Below, piece after piece: positions 46,744-58,453 of a DNA stretch of 64,000 bases; position 1 is the stretch's first letter; each line of letters opens with the position of its first letter. The notes beneath the pieces are model-generated. The model saw nothing but the letters and a program-made list of their open reading frames with translations. It made no database searches and had not been told where the DNA came from. Position numbers and translations under genes: made by a program. Source of the DNA: Hyalangium versicolor. Its GTDB lineage: Bacteria; Myxococcota; Myxococcia; Myxococcales; Myxococcaceae. The stretch spans positions 1-64,000 of the forward strand of contig NZ_JAHXBF010000013.1 of the NCBI RefSeq assembly GCF_020103695.1. Direction: 5' to 3'.

Positions 46744-47118
46744 ATGGCTGGGCTGAGGGTCAGTGGGACACTCCTGTGTCATGCCGGCGAGTACCGCATC
46801 GCGTTCCCCGCGGTGGACGTGGCCGTCATTGATGCGCCCGCGCTCCATGCGGGGCGTGCACGTTCGGCGCGCCAGGCCTTCGGAGAGGCCGGGGGCTCGG
46901 CTCGGGTGCTGCTGGCGCCCTCCGGTGAGACGGTGGGGGTGGACACGTTGGAGATCGACGCGGAGATGCACCGCGTGCTGCCCATGCCCGCGCTGATGGA
47001 GCGGATGGCCGGGGGCAGCCTGCTGGGGTTCCTCTTCATTCGCGGCGAGCTGTGGCCGCTGGTGCGGCTGGTGGAGTTCGAGCACTTCCTCGCGAGTGCT
47101 TCCCGGGAGGCGGCATGA
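46744..47118 (+). CDS. Shortened CheW-like protein
   Basis: 124 residues, CheW-like but diverged: TLLCHAGEYRIAFPAVDVAV resembles the first strands, and GFLFIRGELWPLVRLVEFEHF the later 'RG..IPVVDL' segment. It is shorter than a normal CheW and lacks parts of the second barrel. It overlaps the first MCP gene by 4 nt. It may be a second coupler with specialised partner, as FrzB is in the Frz system. Confidence 0.7.
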   Translation: MAGLRVSGTLLCHAGEYRIAFPAVDVAVIDAPALHAGRARSARQAFGEAGGSARVLLAPSGETVGVDTLEIDAEMHRVLPMPALMERMAGGSLLGFLFIRGELWPLVRLVEFEHFLASASREAA

Positions 47119-48905
47119 GCTCGGGGCTGAAGGGGCTGACGCGGTGGTTGACCCGGCCGTCCTGGCTGGGCGGTGGCGTGGGCGTGGTGCTGGCGCTGAC
47201 CCACGGGCAGTTGGAGTACTCGCCGCCCGAGGGTGCATGGCTCTCCTTCCTCATGTTGGTGGCCCTGGCGTTGGTGCTGAGCTTGGGGCTCACCCGGTTG
47301 CTCGAGCGGCGGGCGATGCGGGTGCTGAGGGCCGTGGAGGGGGGCCGCCTGCCGTCCACGCCGGACAATCTTCGCCAGGCGCTCCAGGAGGCGCGCGCCA
47401 TCCCCGAGCGCTGCTTCTGGTTCACGCTGCTGGGCTGGTTGGGCGGCACCTTGTTGGTGTCGCTCGCCTTCCCGCCGCTGGTGGACCAGCCGTGGCTGCT
47501 GAGCGTGCGCATCGCGCTGGTGGTGCTGGCGCTGGGGCCCTTGAGCGCGCTGCTCGTGTACCTGTTGGTGGTGCGCCGCAGCCGCACGGCCGCTGAGCGC
47601 ATCGCGAACGAGGGCCTGTCCGCGCTGGAGGTCATCACCGCGGTGCCGCCCCAGCGGCAGAACATCCGTCGGCGGCTGCTCATCTTCACCGCCATCGCCG
47701 TGCTCTGCCCGTCCATCTTCATCCTGGACGTCTCCGTGGCGCGCGCGGTGCGCGTCATGGACGAGATCGTTCAGGCCGGCAACCACGCGGCGCAGGAGGC
47801 GGTGGTGGCCCAGGCCCAGAGCGAGCACAGCGTCTCGTTGGGGTTGCTGTCGGCGTTCGTCATCCTGCTGGTGTTGGGCACGGCCTACGCCGCCGGCGCC
47901 GCGCTGTCCGAGCCGCTGAGCGCCATCACCGAGGACGCCACGCGCATCGCCAAGGGCGACCTGCGCCCGCCTCGCGTCATCCCTGCCGAAGACGAGGTGT
48001 GGGCCGCGTCGGCCGCCTTCGTGCAGATGCAGGCCCAGTTGGGGCAGGCGCTGGCGCAGATGCGGCGTGCGGGCATGCAGATCTCCAGCACGACCGAGCA
48101 ACTGGTGGCGACTTCCTCGGAGCAGGAGATGGGCGCGGACGAGCAGTCCAGCTCTCTCAATGAGACGAGCGCTACCACGGAGGAGCTGGCCCGGAGCGCG
48201 CAGCAGATCGCCGGCAACGCCGAGTCCGTGGCGGGTATCGCCGAGAGGACGTTCGCCGCGGCCCAGGGCGGCCAGCGCAACGCCGCTGCCTTCCTCACCG
48301 CCATGCAGCGGATGAAGGAGGACAACCAGTCCATCGCGGACGCGGTGGTGCGGCTGAACAAGCGGGTGCAGCAGATCGGCAAGGTGGTCGAGTTCATCAA
48401 CGAGATCGCCGACAAGACGGACCTGCTGGCGCTCAACGCGGAGCTGGAGGGCACCAAGGCGGGTGAGGTGGGCCGGGGCTTCTCACTGGTGGCCGCGGAG
48501 ATGCGCCGCCTGGCCGAGAACGTCATCCGTTCCACGCGCACCATCGAGCAGCTCATCGAGGAGATCCGCGATGCCACGCACGCGGCGGTGATGGCCACGG
48601 AGGCCGGGCTGAAGACGACCGAGGCGGGCACGCTGCTCGCGGCGCAGGTGGACGAGAGCCTGAGCCTCATCCTCGAGCTGGCACGGCAGACGTCCCACGC
48701 CGTGCGCTCCATCTCGCTGGCCACCCAGCAGCAGCAGACGGGCACCGACCAGCTCGCCGCCGCCATGGGAGACATCCTCCGGGTGACGGAGCAGAACGCC
48801 TCGGCGACCAAGCAGATGGTGGCGGCCAATAGCGATTTGTCCGCACTGGCGAGGGACTTGAAACTCGTGGTGGAGCGCTTCCAACTGGCCGGGAGAGAGG
48901 GCTAG
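47115..48905 (+). CDS. Methyl-accepting chemotaxis protein, six-TM (Mcp3A-like)
   Basis: 596 residues. The N-terminal half has about six hydrophobic segments (for example FLMLVALALVLSLGL, ALVVLALGPLSALLVYLLVV, LLIFTAIAVLCPSIFIL) with little periplasmic sequence, so it may sense membrane or cell-envelope state and not a soluble ligand. A HAMP-like segment follows (PLSAITEDATRIAKGDLRP), then the signalling coiled coil. The CheA/CheW contact tip reads LLALNAELEGTKAGEVGRGF instead of the usual LLALNAAIEAARAGE. GGGAGG precedes ATG 47115, which overlaps the CheW-like stop. It is a tandem paralogue of the next gene. Confidence 0.9.
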   Translation: MSSGLKGLTRWLTRPSWLGGGVGVVLALTHGQLEYSPPEGAWLSFLMLVALALVLSLGLTRLLERRAMRVLRAVEGGRLPSTPDNLRQALQEARAIPERCFWFTLLGWLGGTLLVSLAFPPLVDQPWLLSVRIALVVLALGPLSALLVYLLVVRRSRTAAERIANEGLSALEVITAVPPQRQNIRRRLLIFTAIAVLCPSIFILDVSVARAVRVMDEIVQAGNHAAQEAVVAQAQSEHSVSLGLLSAFVILLVLGTAYAAGAALSEPLSAITEDATRIAKGDLRPPRVIPAEDEVWAASAAFVQMQAQLGQALAQMRRAGMQISSTTEQLVATSSEQEMGADEQSSSLNETSATTEELARSAQQIAGNAESVAGIAERTFAAAQGGQRNAAAFLTAMQRMKEDNQSIADAVVRLNKRVQQIGKVVEFINEIADKTDLLALNAELEGTKAGEVGRGFSLVAAEMRRLAENVIRSTRTIEQLIEEIRDATHAAVMATEAGLKTTEAGTLLAAQVDESLSLILELARQTSHAVRSISLATQQQQTGTDQLAAAMGDILRVTEQNASATKQMVAANSDLSALARDLKLVVERFQLAGREG

Positions 48906-48909
48906 CCGA

Positions 48910-50724
48910 ATGAGCACGAGCGGCACCGCGCGGCGGGCTTCCTTCAGCCGGCACCTGGCGATCCCTGTCCCCGTGGGCAACCTCGTGGGGGCCGCGCTGG
49001 CGTTCTATTACGCCTGGCTCACCATGGAGCAGAAGCTGGACCGTGCTTTCCACCTGCTCATGTCCCTGGGCGCGCTGGCCTGCGTGCTCTCCACGGTGGC
49101 TGGCGGCGGCATGCTGCTGCGGCGCCTGCGCGTGCTGCGCGGGCTGGAGCGCGGCGATCTGTCTCCTACGCCGGAGAATCTGGCCCAGGCCGCGGTCGAG
49201 GCCACCAGCGCCGCGGACACCACGTTCGTCAAGTCATTGATGATGTGGCTCCTCGCCACGGTGGTGCTGGGCGCCCTGGTGTGTACGGTCGATGGCGTGA
49301 GCTGGCACACGGGCCTGAGGGTGGCCTACCTGGGGCTGCTCTTCGGGCCCATCACCGCGCTGCTCGTCCACTGCCTGGTGACGTTGCGGGCCCGCCAGGT
49401 GGTGTTGTGGCTGAGCGAGCTCGGGTTGACGCAGGCGCAGATCATCTCCGCCATGCCCCGGCGCGCGCAGATCCGCGCCCGGCTGGTGCTCTTCACCGGC
49501 ATCGCCGTGGTGACGCCCGCGGTGCTCTCCTCCAACCTCGCCTCGGCGCTGGCGGAGCGCGCCTATGAGCAGGTGCTCGCCACACCCGCGCACGAGCAGG
49601 CGGTGCGCGTGCACGAGCTGCGCGTGGAAGCCTTCACCTCGGGTGGGGCGCTGTGCCTGCTCGTGTTCGGTCTGGCGCTCACCACCGCGTATCTGGGGGG
49701 CACGCTGGTGGGACGCCCCATCCGTGAGCTCGCCGATGAGGCGCGGCGCATCGCGGATGGAAATCTCGCCGCCCCTCGGCTCATCCCCGCGGAGGATGAG
49801 GTGTGGGGTGTCTCCGCCGCCTTCGCGATGATGCGGGCGCACCTGGCGGATGTGCTCTCGCAGTTGCAGCGTGCGGGAGCGCAGATCAGCGCCACCACGG
49901 AGGAGATACTGGCCACCTCGGGCCGCTACGAGGCCGGTGCCGCCGAGCAGGCCAGCTCGCTGGACGAGACGAGCGCCACCACCGAGGAGCTGGCCCGGAG
50001 CGCGCGGCAGATCGCGGAGAACGCGGGTTCGGTGGCGGAGATCGCCCAGCGCACCCTCGCGGCCGCCCAGGGAGGGCAGGGCAGTGCCGAGGCCTTCCTG
50101 GCCTCCATGAGCCGCATGCGCAACGACAACCAGGCCATCGCCTCGGCCGTCACCCGGTTGAACAAGCGGGTGCAGCAGATCGGCAAGGTGGTCGAGTTCA
50201 TCAACGGCGTGGCCGACAAGTCGGACCTGCTGGCGCTCAACGCGGAGCTGGAGGGCACCAAGGCGGGCGAGGTGGGCCGGGGCTTCTCGCTGGTGGCCGC
50301 GGAGATGCGCCGCCTGGCCGAGAACGTCCTGGAGTCCACCAAGGAGATCGAGGGGCTCATCGAGGAGGTTCGAGAGGCCTCGCGCGCGGCGGTGGCCGCC
50401 ACCGAGGGAGGCGTGCGCGCCACGGACACTGGCACCCAGCTCGCGCAGCAGGTCTCCGAGTCCCTCAAGCAGATCCTGGATCTGGCCGGGCAGACGTCCG
50501 ATGCCGTGCGCTCCATCTCGCTGGCCACTCAGCAGCAGCAGACGGGCACCGACCAGCTCGCCGATACCATGGCGGACATCCTCCGCATCACCCAGCAGAG
50601 CCTCAACGCCACCAAGCAGGTGAGCACCGCCAATGGTGACCTGCTGGTGCTCGCGCTGGACCTGCGCAACGTGGTGGAGCGGTTCCAGATCAGCCAGCAG
50701 CCGCCGCCGAGGAGTGAAGGGTGA
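48910..50724 (+). CDS. Methyl-accepting chemotaxis protein, multi-TM (Mcp3B-like)
   Basis: 604 residues. Same layout as its neighbour: about six membrane segments in the first 270 residues, HAMP-like PIRELADEARRIADGNLAA, then the signalling domain with the variant tip LLALNAELEGTKAGEVGRGF. The signalling halves of the two proteins are much more alike than their membrane halves. The last codons overlap cheA (GTGA), so the two are coupled. Confidence 0.9.
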   Translation: MSTSGTARRASFSRHLAIPVPVGNLVGAALAFYYAWLTMEQKLDRAFHLLMSLGALACVLSTVAGGGMLLRRLRVLRGLERGDLSPTPENLAQAAVEATSAADTTFVKSLMMWLLATVVLGALVCTVDGVSWHTGLRVAYLGLLFGPITALLVHCLVTLRARQVVLWLSELGLTQAQIISAMPRRAQIRARLVLFTGIAVVTPAVLSSNLASALAERAYEQVLATPAHEQAVRVHELRVEAFTSGGALCLLVFGLALTTAYLGGTLVGRPIRELADEARRIADGNLAAPRLIPAEDEVWGVSAAFAMMRAHLADVLSQLQRAGAQISATTEEILATSGRYEAGAAEQASSLDETSATTEELARSARQIAENAGSVAEIAQRTLAAAQGGQGSAEAFLASMSRMRNDNQAIASAVTRLNKRVQQIGKVVEFINGVADKSDLLALNAELEGTKAGEVGRGFSLVAAEMRRLAENVLESTKEIEGLIEEVREASRAAVAATEGGVRATDTGTQLAQQVSESLKQILDLAGQTSDAVRSISLATQQQQTGTDQLADTMADILRITQQSLNATKQVSTANGDLLVLALDLRNVVERFQISQQPPPRSEG

Positions 50725-53180
50725 CTCCCCGGGACAGGCTGCTCAAACAGTTCCGCGACCTGGTCGGGGTGCGCCTCGAGCGCATCAACCGCGCCATCGT
50801 GGAGCTCGAGTCCGGAGGCAACGTGGAGACGGGGCGCAAGGCGCTCCGGGAGCTCCATGGCCTCAAGGGCGAAGCCCGGATGATGGGCTTCGACAGCATC
50901 AACGTCCTCGTCCATGAGATGGAGGAACTGGTCCGCTCCATCGAGACCACCCAGTACGCCCTCTCCCACGATTCCGCGGATGCGCTCCTGAAGTCCGCGG
51001 ATGCGGTCATGGTGCTCTCGGGGCTGGTGGCCTCGGATGATGCTCCCGAGGTCGAGAAGCTGGTGTCGTGGCTGCGGGATCGCACCAAGGTCGAGCAGAT
51101 CCAGCTCGGGGGCTCCATGCCCGAGCCGGTGGTGCTGCCTCCCGTGCCAACCGCGCCCCCAGTCCCGACGACGCAGCCCCCGTCCGGTTCGGTAAAGACA
51201 CCGGCGCCGACGCCTCCTTCCCCGAAGCCTGCGCAGAATCCGCAGTCGTCCTGGTCTCGGAGCTCCGGTTCCAATACCCGACCGCCCATCCCGACGTCTC
51301 CGCCCGTGCCATCGGGAACTGCTTCCGCCCCTGCGATGGGGGGCTCCGCGCCTTCGGGAGCGGCCGGTACGACCCGCCCGCCTGTTCCGAATCCATCGCC
51401 GCCGCAGCCTCCCCGCCCACCGGGGTCAACCACTTCGGGGTCAGCTCCCTCCGGAGCGCCGGGTCCAACCTCGTCTTCACGCCCGGAGATGCGCGCGGAC
51501 AGCTCGGTCCGCATCGACGTGGGCAGCCTGGATCTGCTCACCAGCGCCGTCACCAACCTCTCCCAGGTGGTGCGCCGCCGGGAGCTGGCCAATGCCCGCC
51601 GTCTGGCGCTGGCTCGGGACCTGGCCCAGCTCGCACGTGAGGCCGAGGATCTGGGGCCCGCGGGCTCCGCGCTCGCGGCCAAGTTGAGCAAGGCCAAGGA
51701 CCAGGCCGCCGCGCTCCATCGCGAGGCGAAGCTGCTGGCCAACGAGGAGCTGAGGGATCTCGGGCAGGTGGTCGAGGAGGTGCATCGCATCCGCATGCTG
51801 CCGCTCTCGGTCCTCTTCGAGCCCTATCCCCGCGTGGTGCGGGACATGGCCCGCGAGCTGGGCAAGGAAGTGGACCTCGTCGTGGACGGCGAGGACACCC
51901 GGGCCGATCGCGCCGTGGTCGAGGCGCTGCGCGAACCCCTGCTGCACCTGATCCGCAATGCGCTGGACCACGGCCTGGAGACTCGCGTCGACCGCGTGGC
52001 CGCGGGCAAGAAGCCCAAGGGGTGTCTGACGCTGCGCGCCTCGCGCGAGGGCAACCGCATCGTCCTGCGCGTCGAGGACGACGGCCTGGGGCTGGACACC
52101 GTCATGCTGCGCAAGGTGGCCGTCCGCAAGGGCTTCCTGGACGAGATGGCCGCCGGAGCCCTCACCGAGGCCCAGGCCCGTGAGCTCATCTTCCTCTCCG
52201 GTTTCTCCTCGCGCGAGGAGGTGACGCACATCTCCGGCCGCGGCGTGGGGCTGGATGCCGTGCGCACTGCCGTGCAGACCCTGGGCGGAGACGTGGGCGT
52301 CGAGTCCGCGCCCGGGTGGGGCACCATCTTCGAGATCCGCGTCCCCGTCTCCCTCACGGTGGCGCCGCTGCTCTTCGTGAAGGCAGGGGACGAGACGCTC
52401 GCCCTGAGCGCCGCCCATGTCACCCGGGCCCTCAAGCTGGACCTCTCCTCCATGACGGAGCTGGCCGGGCGGCCGGCGCTGAACGCGGACGGCCGGGTGC
52501 TGCCCTTCGGCCACCTGTCCACGCTGCTAGGGCTGGCTCCGGAGCGCCGTCCGAGCGAGGGCGAGCTGGTGCTCGTGGTTCGCAGCCAGGGCGCCACCGC
52601 CGCGCTGGCCGTGGAGCGCGTGCTCGAGGAGCGCGTCCAAGCCATCCTCCCGCTGCGAGGCCTCCTCGCCCGCTTCGGGCACCTCACCGGCGCCACCACC
52701 CTGGCCGATGGCCGACTGGCGATGGTGCTCTCGGCCGCCTACCTGACGGCGGGAGCCCACGGCTCGCTCTCCGTCCGCCTGCCTCGGGCGGCTCCCCGGG
52801 CCGTCGAAGTTCAACGCCGCCGGATCCTGGTCGTGGATGACTCACCCCTCACCCGCGAGCTCATCTCCGCCCTCCTGGAGGCGGTGGGGTACGACATCCT
52901 CGTGGCCTCGGATGGCGGCGAGGCCCTCCACCTGCTCTCGGATTCGCCGGTGGACCTGGTCGTCACCGACCTGGAGATGCCCGGCCTGGACGGCCTGGAG
53001 CTCACCCGCCAGCTCAAGGCCCATGAGACGCTTAACCGACTCCCGGTCATCATCCTCACCACCCGTGGGGGCGAGGAGGACCGGAAGAAGGGGTTGGCGG
53101 CCGGGGCCAACGGCTACATCACCAAGGGCGACCTCGTCCGTCAGGACCTCGTGGACGTGGTGAAGCGCCTGCTGGGGTAA
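50721..53180 (+). CDS. cheA: Hybrid chemotaxis histidine kinase CheA with receiver (CheA3-like)
   Basis: 819 residues. P1 Hpt domain with phospho-His H46 ([16 protein letters not shown]), a Pro/Ser-rich linker of about 130 residues in place of a P2 domain, dimerisation helices, then HATPase ([29 protein letters not shown]), CheW-like P5 domain ([20 protein letters not shown]), and a C-terminal receiver with [12 protein letters not shown] and YITKGDL. No CheY gene is present, so the built-in receiver or CrdA is the target. In M. xanthus CheA3 lowers CrdA phosphorylation (literature). Confidence 0.93.
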
Positions 53181-53248
53181 AGGCCACCCGGAGACAGGCG
53201 AAGTCATTGGGTATACTCCTCGTGTCGCGCACGGGGTATGCACAGGTA

Positions 53249-54304
53249 ATGGTCAAGAAAGTGTCGGTGCTGGTGGTGGATGACTCGCTCATCTGCCGAC
53301 AGCTCATCTGCGAAGCACTGGGCCAGGACCCGGATCTCCAGGTCGTGGGCACGTGCGTCGACGGGAAGGAGGCGCTCGCGAAGGTCAAGGAGCTGCGCCC
53401 CAGCGTCGTCACCATGGACGTGGACATGCCGGTGATGGATGGGCTCACCGCCGTGGAGCACATCATGGCTGAGTGCCCGACCCCCATCCTGGTGCTCACG
53501 GCCGATCCTCGGCAGCAGGCGCCGGAGCTGACGTGCCGGGCGCTGGAGCTGGGCGCCCTGGGGCTGCGCGTGAAGCCGTCCATCGATGATGGGCTCGAGG
53601 CGTGGAACCTGGCCAAGGAGCTGAAGCTGCTGGCCTCGGTGCGAGTCATCCGCCACATCCGCCAGCACAAGAAAATCACCCCGCCAGTGCGCAATGAGCT
53701 GCCCTCGCTGCTGCCGCCGAGCATGGGCATGGTGGCGGTGGCCGCGTCGACGGGTGGGCCGCAGGTGCTTCACCGGATGCTGTCCGAGCTGCCCTCGGAC
53801 TTCCCGGCACCTATTGCCATCGTGCAGCACATCAACGCCGCCTTCGCCGAGTCGCTCGCGGGCTGGCTGGCCAACTCGTGCCGGCTGAAGGTCCGGCTGG
53901 CGCAGGACGGCGAGCTGCTGATGCCGGGGCACGTGCTGATCGCTCCACCGGGCATGCACATGGTCATCCCGTTCCGGGGGCGCGTGGCGCTCAAGCCGGG
54001 CGTGGAGCGGGACGGGCACATGCCGTCCGCCACGGTGCTGCTGGAGAGCGCGGCCAAGGCCTACGGGCGGCGCGCGCTGGGCGTCATCCTCACGGGCATG
54101 GGTGAGGACGGCGCGGCGGGCATGCTGGCCATCAAGCAGGCCGGTGGGCTCACCCTGGCTCAGAACGAGGAGTCCTGCGTCGTGTTCGGCATGCCCGGCG
54201 CGGCCGTGGAGCGCAATGCGGTGGATCACCTCGTCCATGGGGATGAGGTGGGTGCGGCGCTGGTGAAGCTGTCGCGCGGGGAAGCGCTCGCCCAGGGGCG
54301 GTGA
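53249..54304 (+). CDS. cheB: Chemotaxis methylesterase CheB
   Basis: 351 residues. Receiver with D57 ([13 protein letters not shown]) and Lys in LRVKPS, then a methylesterase domain with the catalytic triad S167 (AASTGGPQ), H194 (VQHIN) and D287 (GMGEDGAAG). It removes methyl groups from receptor glutamates and so resets the receptors. I use ATG 53249 ([13 protein letters not shown]); an upstream frame adds 14 unlike residues. The TATACT at 53212-53217 may be part of an internal promoter (-35 GAGACA at 15 bp; weak). Confidence 0.93.
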
Positions 54305-54308
54305 CGGC

Positions 54309-55982
54309 GTGACGCCCACTCGGCCAGGCTCGCTCATCCACGCGTACATCACTACGCGGACGGGCATGGCCCTGAGTGACAACCAGCGGCGGAGGCTGGA
54401 CGAGCGGCTGGCGGTGCTGAGGGGTTCGCTCTCGGAGCAGCAGTACCTGTTGCACCTGCAGACCCCATCGGGTGCGGCGGAGCTGTCCACGCTCATCTCC
54501 GTGGTGGCGGTGCACAAGACGGATCTGTTCCGGGACGAGGTGCAGCTGGGGGATTTCCGCACGCAGGTGCTCGATCCGCTGGTGGCCCAGGCGTCGGGGC
54601 GGCCGCTGCGCTTCTGGAGCGCGGGCTGCGCCACGGGCGAAGAGGTGGCCACGCTCCTGATGATGATGGACGAGGCCGGAGCGGATCCGGGCAGCTCGGT
54701 GCTGGGGACCGACATCTCCGAGGCGGCGCTCAACCGTGCTCGGACGCTGAGCTTCTCCGCGGATCAGATCCGCCGCCTCCCGGGCGCGCTGCGCGAGCGT
54801 TACTTCGTTCCCGACGGGGCGCGTGGACTGCTGGTGCCCGAGCTGCGCGAGCGCGCGTACTTTCAGCTCCACAACCTGATGGAGACGCCGTACCCCAGCT
54901 CGGGTGGGGGCGAGGGCTTCGACGTCATCTTCTGCCGCAACGTCCTCATCTATTTCACCACGGAGGCGTTCGATCGGGTGGTGCTGGCCCTGGCCGAGCG
55001 GCTCGTGCCCGGGGGCACGTTGGTGCTCTCCGCCGCGGAGCCCCTGCTGCACGCCCCATCGAGCCTGCGCATCATTCGCAGTGACCACGCCTTCTTCTAT
55101 GTCCGAGCGCAGCACCATCTCCCAGCTCCGCCCTCCTCGGGCCCTGAGCGCAAGAGAGACGCGGGCTCCTTCCCAGTGGTTGTGCCCTCGGGGGGCTCGG
55201 AGCGGCCTCGTGAGGCCACCGTGTCGCCCCAGCCGTCTGCTCTCGCTCCCGAGTGGCCGAGAGAACCTGCTCCCGGGAATGAGCCGCGGAGGGATTCGGG
55301 GCGTTACGCCGCCGTGGGAAGCGCACCCAGGAGGGATTCGGGGCGCCACTCCACCGTTGCTGCGGAGCCGAGGCGGGACTCGGGGACTTTTGCCTCCGTG
55401 CCGCCCGACCCGCGGCGGGACTCGGGCCGCCATGCCACGGTAGGGAGCGCTCCACGGAAAGAGTCGGGGCGTTTCCCCGCCGTGTCGCCCGATCCGCGGA
55501 GGGAGTCCGGAAGCTTCGCCACGGTGGGGAGCGATCCGCGGAGGGAGTCGGGGCGTTTCCCCGCTGTGCCTCCTGCTGCGTGGTCCTCGGGTTCGCCTGT
55601 GTCCGGATCGTTCCCCGCCATCGGCTCCCCTCACCCTCAGCACGCCCCGGACCGCTCCGAGGAGCACCCCTTGTTCGTCGAGGCCGACAGCCTCTTCGCC
55701 CTGGTGCTCGAAGGGGTGGGGGAGGCGGACTCCCAGACGGAGGACTACCTGCGGCGCTGCCTGGCGCTGGACCCGGATCTCTCCGCCGCGCGCTACCTGC
55801 TGGGGATGCTGCTCGAACTGAGGGAGGCGTTCCTCGAGGCCGCCTCCGAGTATCGCCGAGCCCTCCGCTCCCTGGAGGAGGGACGGGCCCGGGCCACCCC
55901 CTTCTTCCTCAACCACTCCCGCCTCCGGGTGGCCTGCGCCAAGGCCATCGAGCGGATGGAGGGCGGGGGCAAACCCCGCTGA
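54309..55982 (+). CDS. cheR: Chemotaxis methyltransferase CheR with repeat linker and TPR-like tail
   Basis: 557 residues from GTG 54309, 4 bp after cheB. The CheR domain spans about 1-275 with RFWSAGCATGEEVATLL (SAM binding), DTISEAALNRAR-type motif, and IFCRNVLIYF. Residues 326-423 are seven 14-residue repeats with core PRR(D/E)SG(R/T/S), one of them K/E-substituted. The last 110 residues are helical and TPR-like (EDYLRRCLALDPDLSAARY). CheR-TPR fusions are known (CheR/FrzF); the repeat array in between is unusual. It methylates the MCPs encoded upstream. Confidence 0.9.
   Translation: MTPTRPGSLIHAYITTRTGMALSDNQRRRLDERLAVLRGSLSEQQYLLHLQTPSGAAELSTLISVVAVHKTDLFRDEVQLGDFRTQVLDPLVAQASGRPLRFWSAGCATGEEVATLLMMMDEAGADPGSSVLGTDISEAALNRARTLSFSADQIRRLPGALRERYFVPDGARGLLVPELRERAYFQLHNLMETPYPSSGGGEGFDVIFCRNVLIYFTTEAFDRVVLALAERLVPGGTLVLSAAEPLLHAPSSLRIIRSDHAFFYVRAQHHLPAPPSSGPERKRDAGSFPVVVPSGGSERPREATVSPQPSALAPEWPREPAPGNEPRRDSGRYAAVGSAPRRDSGRHSTVAAEPRRDSGTFASVPPDPRRDSGRHATVGSAPRKESGRFPAVSPDPRRESGSFATVGSDPRRESGRFPAVPPAAWSSGSPVSGSFPAIGSPHPQHAPDRSEEHPLFVEADSLFALVLEGVGEADSQTEDYLRRCLALDPDLSAARYLLGMLLELREAFLEAASEYRRALRSLEEGRARATPFFLNHSRLRVACAKAIERMEGGGKPR
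55284..55577 (+). repeat. Seven tandem 42-bp coding repeats (PRRDSG units)
   Basis: Units of exactly 14 codons with core PRRDSG or PRRESG, then RHATVG-like and PPD/GSA endings. A degenerate earlier unit (KRDAGSFPVV) lies upstream. In-frame, inside cheR, so it is a protein repeat. Confidence 0.9.
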
Positions 55983-56055
55983 CAGGCGGGCAGGCGACAA
56001 TGCCCGTGAGAAGGATCGGACGCGCGCGGGGTTTGGCCGTAAGATGCGCGCCCCT

Positions 56056-56952
56056 ATGAGAAGGCTCGCCGTGCTCTCCCTGGTCCTGCTGTCGGGTTGC
56101 TTCTACCCGGCCAGCCGCGGCCGTGCGCTCGAGGCCAAGGTCGACAAGCTCACCGCCGACAACACCCGGATGAACGAGGAGTTGAAGCAGGCGCGCGAGC
56201 AGCTCGCCGCCACGCTCCCCCGCATCGACGAGAAGGTCGTCGAGGTGACCAAGGCCCTGGAGAGTCTGGAGTCGGGCTCGCGGCGCAACGACGCGGACAT
56301 CGGCATCCAGCTCCAGAAGACGGTGGAGGACCTGGCCAACCTGCGCGGGCAGGTAGAGACGTACCTCTATAAGATCGGCGAGCTGGAGACGGGGATCGGC
56401 AAGCTCACCACCGATGCGGAGAAGAAGCAGCTGACGCAGCAGGGCCCGGATGCGCTGAAGGAAGCCGAGGCCAAGAAGCAGGCCGAAACCCTGAAGCGCC
56501 CCGAGGACAAGAAGGAGTTCCTCGCGTTGGCCCAGGAGAAGGCGAAGGCCGGCGAGTTGCCCCTGGCGCGCCAGCTCTATTCGGAGTTCATGAAGAAGTG
56601 GGCCAAGGATCCCCTCATGGGCGAGGCCCACTTCGGCATGGGAGAGACGTACTTCACCGAGGACAAGTGCCGCGAGGCCCTCTTCGAGTACGGCAAGGTG
56701 ATCCAGGACTTCGCGAAGACGCCGTCGGCGCCGCAGGCGTACCTGCGCTCCTCGGAGTGCTTCGCCAAGCTGAAGATGACGGAGGAGTCGCGGCTGGCGC
56801 TGGAGGAGCTCGTCAAGAGCTTCCCCAAGTCCGAGGAGGCGAAGACGGCCAAGGCGCGAATCGCGGAGCTGGACAAGGCGAAGAAGAAGCCGGCTCCCGC
56901 CCCCACGAAACCGGCGCCCGCACCGGCGCCCGCGAAGAAGGGAACCAAATGA
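56056..56952 (+). CDS. CpoB/YbgF-like lipoprotein with coiled coil and TPRs
   Basis: 298 residues from ATG 56056. Leader MRRLAVLSLVLLSGC has a lipobox. A long coiled coil follows (about 25-120, ending in LANLRGQVETYLYKIGELE), then three TPR-like pairs (AKAGELPLARQLYSEFMKKW, GEAHFGMGETYFTEDKC, AYLRSSECFAKLKMTEES) and a Lys/Pro/Ala tail. It resembles the trimerising coiled coil plus TPR of Tol-Pal-associated CpoB/YbgF. It overlaps the next gene by 4 nt (ATGA). An ATG at 56044 would add 4 residues. Confidence 0.82.
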   Translation: MRRLAVLSLVLLSGCFYPASRGRALEAKVDKLTADNTRMNEELKQAREQLAATLPRIDEKVVEVTKALESLESGSRRNDADIGIQLQKTVEDLANLRGQVETYLYKIGELETGIGKLTTDAEKKQLTQQGPDALKEAEAKKQAETLKRPEDKKEFLALAQEKAKAGELPLARQLYSEFMKKWAKDPLMGEAHFGMGETYFTEDKCREALFEYGKVIQDFAKTPSAPQAYLRSSECFAKLKMTEESRLALEELVKSFPKSEEAKTAKARIAELDKAKKKPAPAPTKPAPAPAPAKKGTK

Positions 56953-58052
56953 GACTGCGTGCCCTGGCGCTCGCCGCGCTGGCGCTGCTGCTCGTGCCAT
57001 TCGTGGCCGGCGCGGCTCCGAAGAAGGCGGTGCTCATCTTTACCGGAGACAACGGGGGCGAGATCGCCCCCTGTGGTTGAATCCACAACCCGTCTGGCGG
57101 TCTGGCCAGACGAAAGATGGCGATTGAAGCGGAGCGCGCGAAGGACGTGCCGGTGCTCGTGTTGGATGCGGGCAATGCGCTCTTCAAGTACCCCGCGAAG
57201 GGAGCCGATCCGACCGAGAAGGCCCGGGCGGAGCTGATCCTCAAGCAGATGGACGCGATGGGCACCGTGGCCATGGCCGCGGGCGCGCGCGACCTGACGC
57301 TGGGGCTGGACTTCCTGAAGAGCACGGCCAAGGGCGCGAAGATGAAGGTGCTGTCCGCCAACCTCGTGGACAAGGCGGGCAAGGCGGTGTTCCCGGCCTC
57401 CACGGTGGCCACCGTCGCGGGGCTCAAGTTCGGCATCGTGGGCGCCTCTCCCGAGGGCGCGCTGCCCGACTGCCAGGGCCAGCCTGCGGCTCCGGCCGTG
57501 CTCGCGGAGGCGAAGCGCCTGCGTGAGAAGGAGAAGGTGGACGTCGTCGTCGTGCTCGCGGCCATGCCCTACGATGTGGCTCGGAAGCTTGCCTCCCAGG
57601 CCGAGGGCGTGGACTTCGTCATCCAGTCCCATGAGGGGCGCGGTACGGGTGTGGCCTACAGGGATGGCCTGGCCGTCGTGATTCCTCCGGGGGAGCGAGG
57701 TCGGCAGGTGGCTCGCCTGGAACTGGCCGTGTCGGGTCCGGGCACCTTCCAGGACCTGAACACCGCGGGCCAGGCCAAGGAGAACCTGAAGAACCTGGAG
57801 GCCAACCTGAACCGGGCGAAGGAGCGGCTGGTCGCCACCCAGGATCCGGCTGCCCGGAAGGCACTCGAGGAGACGATCGCCACCTTCGAGGCCCGCCGGA
57901 CGGCCTTGCAGAAAGAGGCCAAACTCGACGCAACGGGTTTGGCCCGTACGCATCAATTGTCGTACATCCAGCTTGGAACCGATAAACCCTCGGATCCAAC
58001 CGTCCAGAAACTGGTGGAGCGCATCGAGCCGGCCGGCTCGGGGCACCACTGA
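56949..58052 (+). CDS. Probable selenoprotein: metallophosphoesterase-like protein with in-frame UGA (Sec44)
   Basis: From ATG 56949 the frame runs 43 codons, reaches TGA (57078-57080) and continues in the same frame to the stop at 58052, giving 367 residues if UGA is read. The first part is a signal peptide (MRLRALALAALALLLVPFVA). Then comes ILIFTGDNGGEIAPCG, the UGA, and IHNPSGGLARRKMAIEAE; homologues I know of this UshA/5'-nucleotidase-like group read ...EPCGCxxNPLGGLARR, so UGA stands for the second Cys. Downstream has PVLVLDAGNALF, KVLSANLVD and VDFVIQSHEGRG, the phosphoesterase pattern, with a coiled-coil tail. A SECIS-like hairpin lies just behind UGA. A reading that starts at 57117 would remove the signal and the motif. 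Confidence 0.85.
57078..57112 (+). promoter_or_regulatory. UGA codon and bacterial SECIS element
   Basis: After UGA (57078-57080) come 18 nt and then the loop GGTCTG (57099-57104) closed by a perfect 8-bp stem (CGTCTGGC 57091-57098, GCCAGACG 57105-57112). The GGTCT loop and the 18-nt distance equal those of the E. coli fdhF SECIS as I remember it (18 nt to GGUCU), the sequence SelB binds. The hairpin is inside the coding frame, as in bacteria. Confidence 0.85.
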
Positions 58053-58094: not shown

Positions 58095-58165
58095 CGCCGG
58101 CCACCTCAATCGCCGGACCTCCTGCCCAAGGGTGGGTGGGGGCAAGGCGCACTGGAGATGTCGTC

Positions 58166-58453
58166 ATGAAGCCTGAACTGCACCCGGTCTATCCCCCCGC
58201 TCGCATCACCTGTGCCTGCGGCAACATCGTCGAGACCAAGTCCACGCGCGGCTCGTTCCAGGTGGAAATCTGCTCGAACTGCCACCCCTTCTTCACCGGT
58301 AAGTACAAGCTGCTCGACACGCAGGGCCGCGTCGACCGCTTCCGGAAGAAGTACGCCGCCACCAACGCCGCCAAGGAGGCTGCTGCCGCCGGTGGCGAGG
58401 CTGCCGCTCCGGCCGCTGGCAAGAAGGGCAAGAAGGCCGAGACCAAGGCGTAA
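58166..58453 (+). CDS. rpmE: 50S ribosomal protein L31 (zinc-binding type)
   Basis: 95 residues. [20 protein letters not shown], then [19 protein letters not shown] and [10 protein letters not shown] are the L31 signature. The four Cys (CAC...CSNC) show the zinc-containing C+ form. The Ala/Gly/Lys-rich tail of about 30 residues is an extension relative to E. coli, as seen in other deltaproteobacteria. The ATG at 58136 in the same frame is not supported by a ribosome site. Confidence 0.96.

Follow-up and report, generated by a model that had tools for sequence, protein, structure and literature searches.

Evidence for a cytochrome-free UshA-like selenoprotein with a CxU motif in Hyalangium versicolor and related bacteria

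Introduction

UshA-like (seleno)proteins with the motif CxU (COG0737) are an established selenoprotein family (PMC2398784, PMC9312934, PMC13188914). NCBIfam describes proteins of this kind by the model NF041198 (UshA_like_PCGU; 519 positions, cut-off 275 bits), while a second model, NF049981 (UshA-like (seleno)protein family 2), covers proteins with the motif CxxU. For the bacterial selenocysteine insertion hairpin (bSECIS), the published constraints are a loop of 3–9 nt with a G in its first two positions, a stem of 4–16 bp, a distance of 16–37 nt from the UGA, and a minimum free energy of at most −7.5 kcal/mol (PMC13188914). Aerobic bacteria seldom retain selenoproteins (PMC13188914).

Here, we examined a gene from Hyalangium versicolor that lies in a stretch of 64,000 nucleotides, the whole of which we refer to as the window. 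A preliminary description of this gene had proposed an exported phosphoesterase with selenocysteine (Sec) at an in-frame UGA. Our search of the literature on myxobacterial selenoproteins returned nothing on this protein, with incomplete coverage of the likeliest prior reports (Haft and Gwadz 2023; Haft and Tolstoy 2025).

Results

On the forward strand, the frame at 56949–58052 is interrupted solely by a UGA at codon 44 (57078–57080), as had been stated, and homologous sequence flanks this codon on both sides, as expected of a selenoprotein gene. Sequence, profiles and fold agree on an UshA-like, exported protein of 367 amino acids with Sec as predicted residue 44, placed in the CxU motif P41-C42-G43-Sec44 (57069–57080). 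Both PCG[U/C] and GG..R are invariant in the 42 aligned members of the family. Residues 1–22 (56949–57014) form a probable Sec-type signal peptide, whose cleavage site between AGA and APKK was judged by eye and whose region is modelled by AlphaFold, at low confidence, as a helix at residues 3–14. The start codon overlaps the stop of the preceding gene as ATGA (56949–56952), again confirming the earlier reading. The codon at the Sec site is TGA in 73 loci and TGC in 8 relatives (five orthologues and three Cys paralogues); these 8 include locus L007 from the same genus, which bears out the earlier expectation of Cys in homologues. A sequencing-read error at the UGA was ruled out by its occurrence at the same position in 73 loci from many species.

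Downstream of this codon, coordinates and folding both recover the hairpin described earlier (57091–57112): an 8-bp stem of perfect pairs (57091–57098 with 57105–57112) closing the loop GGUCUG (57099–57104), which begins 18 nt past the UGA. The hairpin folds with a free energy of −14.9 kcal/mol (z −4.25; 0/200 shuffles as good), and the surrounding 53-nt stretch with one of −18.2 kcal/mol (z −2.24). With a 6-nt loop, 8 pairs, a spacing of 18 nt and this energy, the hairpin lies within all of the published bSECIS constraints. The SECIS of E. coli fdhF likewise has a hairpin just past the UGA, with GGU at the loop top and the same 18-nt spacing, but its stem differs in sequence and has a bulged U that the window stem lacks. 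Counted over both strands and all frames, the window holds 1453 TGA triplets, of which only the codon-44 site has 8 pairs at this register; it is also the only one to combine 6 or more pairs with a GGTC loop. When synonymous codons were resampled for the same peptide, stem and loop appeared together in 922 of 1,000,000 draws (0.09%). When the 13.6-Mb genome was searched with a covariance model of 44 relatives, the window site was found with an E-value of 5.7e-14, and there was no convincing further SECIS of this type (next match E 0.165).

Conservation of the hairpin follows the identity of the codon. We read 73 UGA loci for hairpin register and found GGUCU exactly at +18 in every one, compared with none of the 8 UGC relatives, one of which (L125) has GGUCU three bases earlier. 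Across the UGA loci, the stem pairs are formed in 89.8% of cells, against 19–41% with slid partners. Double changes occupy 11 cells of the stem (0/500 shuffles), a count that is not fully independent as kin share changes; columns 18/31 swap U-A for G-C, and columns 16/33 show six pair types. The outer pairs are weaker and fail to form in as many as one third of the distinct sequences (15/44 at one), so that about 5–6 pairs and the loop are strictly kept; RNAalifold alone retains 4 pairs. Within the family set, synonymous change is 0.05 in the hairpin codons versus 0.30 elsewhere in the gene, and when the gene is divided into 331 windows of eight codons, the two with the least such change overlap the hairpin. 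To keep the stem, the UGA loci use codons that these GC-rich genes otherwise seldom employ (AGA, 0.8% of Arg; ACT, 0.8% of Thr; TCT, 3.4% of Ser; GGT, 6.4% of Gly), in the stem as well as in the loop.

The preliminary description had further predicted selA, selB, selC and selD in this organism, and all four are present: selA at 570 bits (cut-off 268), selB at 308 bits (cut-off 242), selD at 382 bits (cut-off 125), and a tRNA-Sec (selC) with the anticodon tca. Across the class, 89 of 147 genomes have UGA at the site; counted for machinery, these carry tRNA-Sec in 88 cases and selA in 87. In one exception, G056 (a metagenome-assembled genome, MAG, 80% complete), selA was not found. In the other, G124 (a MAG, 87% complete, in 900 contigs), the UGA and the GGUCU hairpin are present at locus L121 and neither selA nor tRNA-Sec was found, which probably reflects an assembly gap. 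A Cys orthologue occurs in five genomes (G001, G060, G091, G129 and G144; G060 only 79% complete); a tRNA-Sec match was found in none of these and selA in one (G129).

The genus itself offers the closest comparison. Six of its seven genomes have the UGA and all of selA, selB and selC, and the related species retain a conserved hairpin. The seventh, G001, has TGC at the site and keeps selD, and neither selA, selB nor tRNA-Sec exceeded the cut-offs in it. Its hairpin stretch reads CCC TCG GGC GGC TTG GCC CGG CGA, against CCG TCT GGC GGT CTG GCC AGA CGA in the window, and encodes the identical peptide; the hairpin is altered at synonymous sites only, and these changes abolish the loop motif and some of the stem. 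In a tree of 70 rows, at least 6 Sec/Cys changes are needed, and the Cys protein of G001 adjoins the Sec protein of G003 with support of 98/86.

Two further observations concern other loci. Cys paralogues in Archangium and its relatives (L064, L128–L131 and L134) lack the TGA, occur in genomes that also carry the Sec copy, and have the Pro before the motif replaced (AHCGC, SHCGC, AQCGC, SDCGC). The selD gene of the window genome (L046; G000:C55:14162-15091) itself contains one in-frame TGA, as do those of G005 and G006 (also L043 and L047), and those of the sister species G002, G003 and G004 and of G001 have none. SelD is thus probably a second selenoprotein of the species; at these loci, inspection by a rough script was too noisy beyond the SelD frame itself.

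With regard to family, the window protein scores 175.8 bits against NF041198 (positions 17–375 of 519), and all 42 members match this model below its cut-off (best relative about 187 bits, E 5e-55). By the cut-off rule it is therefore not a member of NF041198, although the motif is shared. The two have in common the N-terminal domain, a PCG[U/C] that occupies the same position and precedes a GG, the exchange of Sec and Cys, and export. They differ in that members from the phylum over or near the cut-off, where checked, have a C-terminal Cytochrome_C554 domain, as in L171, which passes or nearly passes it, whereas the window branch has none; it is because this domain is absent that the window protein falls below the cut-off. 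Five phylum proteins over the cut-off have open frames without an internal stop, and PCGC was read in two of them. The window genome also encodes a paralogue, L009 (G000:C3:384782-386185), that combines an UshA-like domain, PCGC and a C-terminal Cytochrome_C554, at 263 bits just below the cut-off. NF049981 is related in fold and Sec use and matches all 42 members weakly; the window protein reaches 39 bits against its cut-off of 140 and has CxU rather than CxxU. We accordingly assign the window gene, from its sequence, to a stand-alone, cytochrome-free branch of the known UshA-like kind. The selenoprotein that the preliminary description could not name is thus upheld as to Sec, but is not of an unknown type, being a relative of the CxU family of NF041198.

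Structurally, the AlphaFold model (pLDDT 90.5) has the fold of 5′-nucleotidases and metallophosphoesterases: its nearest solved folds are 5′-nucleotidases (Foldseek E 2e-19), and the profile matches 2z1a with an E-value of 1e-24. A Pfam search of the window protein returned no domain, and so no cytochrome domain. Conservation is uneven, with 65% of residues 24–43 and 83% of residues 45–56 invariant in the family set, compared with 22% of the rest of the protein. At the aligned positions which, from established knowledge of 5′-nucleotidases, we take to be metal ligands in 2z1a, two residues persist, Asp34 in motif I and Asp73 in motif II. At the others, Gly stands in for the motif I His, Asn for the motif II metal Asp (35 of 42 members), x-Arg for the Asn-His of motif III, Ala for the His of motif IV (31 of 42) and QSHEGRG for GHxH. 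The dimetal ligand set (D-x-H, D, N-H, H, GHxH) is therefore only partly kept, short of what defines a metallophosphoesterase. Compared with the 5′-nucleotidase, CD73 and SoxB metallophosphoesterases, the protein is alike in its N-terminal domain fold but has lost most metal ligands and lacks the nucleotide-binding C-terminal domain. Of the exported phosphoesterase first suggested, the fold stands and the activity label does not.

Directly upstream lies a gene for a TPR or CpoB (YbgF)-like protein (56044–56952, forward strand; TIGR02795 at 73 bits, with matches to NF053852), which has an N-terminal signal and a lipobox-like LSGC read from the sequence. A homologue occupies the same place in nearly all UGA loci across many genera, including divergent ones of 28–60% identity, and in four Cys orthologues, and it is absent upstream of the three Cys paralogues examined. 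Because the TPR gene adjoins in nearly all UGA loci, the arrangement suggests a conserved two-gene unit. Further upstream, 47052–55982 is a chemosensory-type cluster with two methyl-accepting-like proteins, a CheB-like protein, a CheA-like hybrid with a response-regulator domain, and a CheR (PF01739) that carries imperfect PRRDSGxxAxV repeats after its methyltransferase domain. On the other side, the ribosomal protein L31 encoded at 58136–58453 continues past the Pfam domain with a C-terminal part rich in Lys and Ala.

Discussion

In this study, sequence gave strong support at this locus for the coding of Sec, for the hairpin as a SECIS, for the sel machinery, for the exchange of Sec and Cys, and for the fold. 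It also supports an export signal and the loss of the metal site. It is highly probable that the gene encodes a selenoprotein whose UGA 44 is read through as Sec, and for Sec insertion at this codon, taken by itself, we come close to certainty. The preliminary description had named in advance what would speak against Sec decoding (no sel genes in the genome, related strains with TGC and no conserved hairpin, a corrected read), and each of these tests came out in favour of it; the sole same-genus species with TGC is the one without selA, selB and selC. As a mechanism, ribosomes that finish the TPR gene may start again at the shared ATGA, if the two genes are coupled, and the hairpin would bind SelB loaded with Sec-tRNA-Sec at UGA 44, where Sec would be put in in place of termination. 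The product would be exported, with the fold of the N-terminal domain of 5′-nucleotidase/UshA and a dimetal site largely lost, and its Cys-Gly-Sec pair (C42, U44) would adjoin the conserved GGLARR loop.

If the UGA were instead a true stop, the locus would be a pseudogene or a split gene, yielding a short exported peptide and a second protein of 311 amino acids from the ATG at 57117. A mechanical list of open reading frames does show such a second frame (57117–58052), and standard annotation would probably give the same split. Yet conservation on either side of the UGA exceeds that of the remaining protein, a start at 57117 loses the invariant PCG-x-GGLARR region together with the signal peptide, the same UGA is retained in 89 genomes, and the Cys genomes have one continuous frame, all of which makes termination very improbable. 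Decoding of the UGA as another amino acid, or by a near-cognate leak, would likewise keep the frame open, and we found no positive support for it. It is at odds with the complete Sec machinery that tracks the UGA across the class, with the fixed SECIS register and with the failure to find tRNA-Sec in any of the five Cys-orthologue genomes; moreover, since UGA ends both the selenoprotein gene and its upstream neighbour as a normal stop, the genetic code here is standard. We consider this the most improbable reading of all. Pseudogene, genetic-code change and leaky stop were accordingly rejected on conservation and on co-occurrence with the Sec machinery.

A different question is whether the selenoprotein acts as a metallophosphoesterase in which Sec is accessory or structural. 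The fold and the profile match to 5′-nucleotidases and SoxB, as well as the retained Asp34 and Asp73, are in keeping with such a role, but the other ligand positions are replaced relative to 2z1a and the invariant residues are Sec/Cys and GG..R instead. A working phosphoesterase is therefore unlikely, because most of the metal ligands are gone, and we give this explanation a small share of the probability. We lean, with some reserve, away from hydrolysis and toward a role in redox or other selenol-based chemistry for the selenoprotein, which most likely serves in thiol/selenol redox or group transfer in the periplasm, with its centre at C42-U44. Because relatives fuse the same domain to a tetraheme cytochrome c, electron exchange via a partner would be the likeliest chemistry. 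That partner is a guess, since no multiheme cytochrome was found near the 20 divergent relatives checked; perhaps it is the TPR lipoprotein. The CxU may instead serve in a non-redox role, such as metal or metalloid binding or group transfer.

The SECIS type and the general family were already known. As far as we have checked, four points are new, of which part may be described already: the branch without a cytochrome, the fact that Myxococcaceae-type bacteria retain it almost universally, the partner in its operon, and the replacement of Sec by Cys where the machinery was lost. In about 90 genomes, annotation probably treats the gene as broken or truncated. The lineage is largely aerobic, and retention of this selenoprotein across about 23 genera of the class stands against the general rarity of selenoproteins in aerobes. 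Within one genus, loss of selA, selB and selC together with a change from Sec to Cys, in which the hairpin was altered only synonymously, makes a clean natural experiment. The findings also extend the UshA-like selenoproteins to a cytochrome-free form, in which the CxU domain is isolated for biochemistry. For the fullest reading, we see the case as evenly poised: a separate cytochrome-free periplasmic selenoprotein subfamily, kept by most bacteria of the Myxococcaceae type and sharing an operon with a CpoB-like TPR lipoprotein, whose metallophosphoesterase fold has been turned to CxU redox or metalloid handling. If this is true, the Sec machinery of this predatory and largely aerobic lineage would have the subfamily as a main client.
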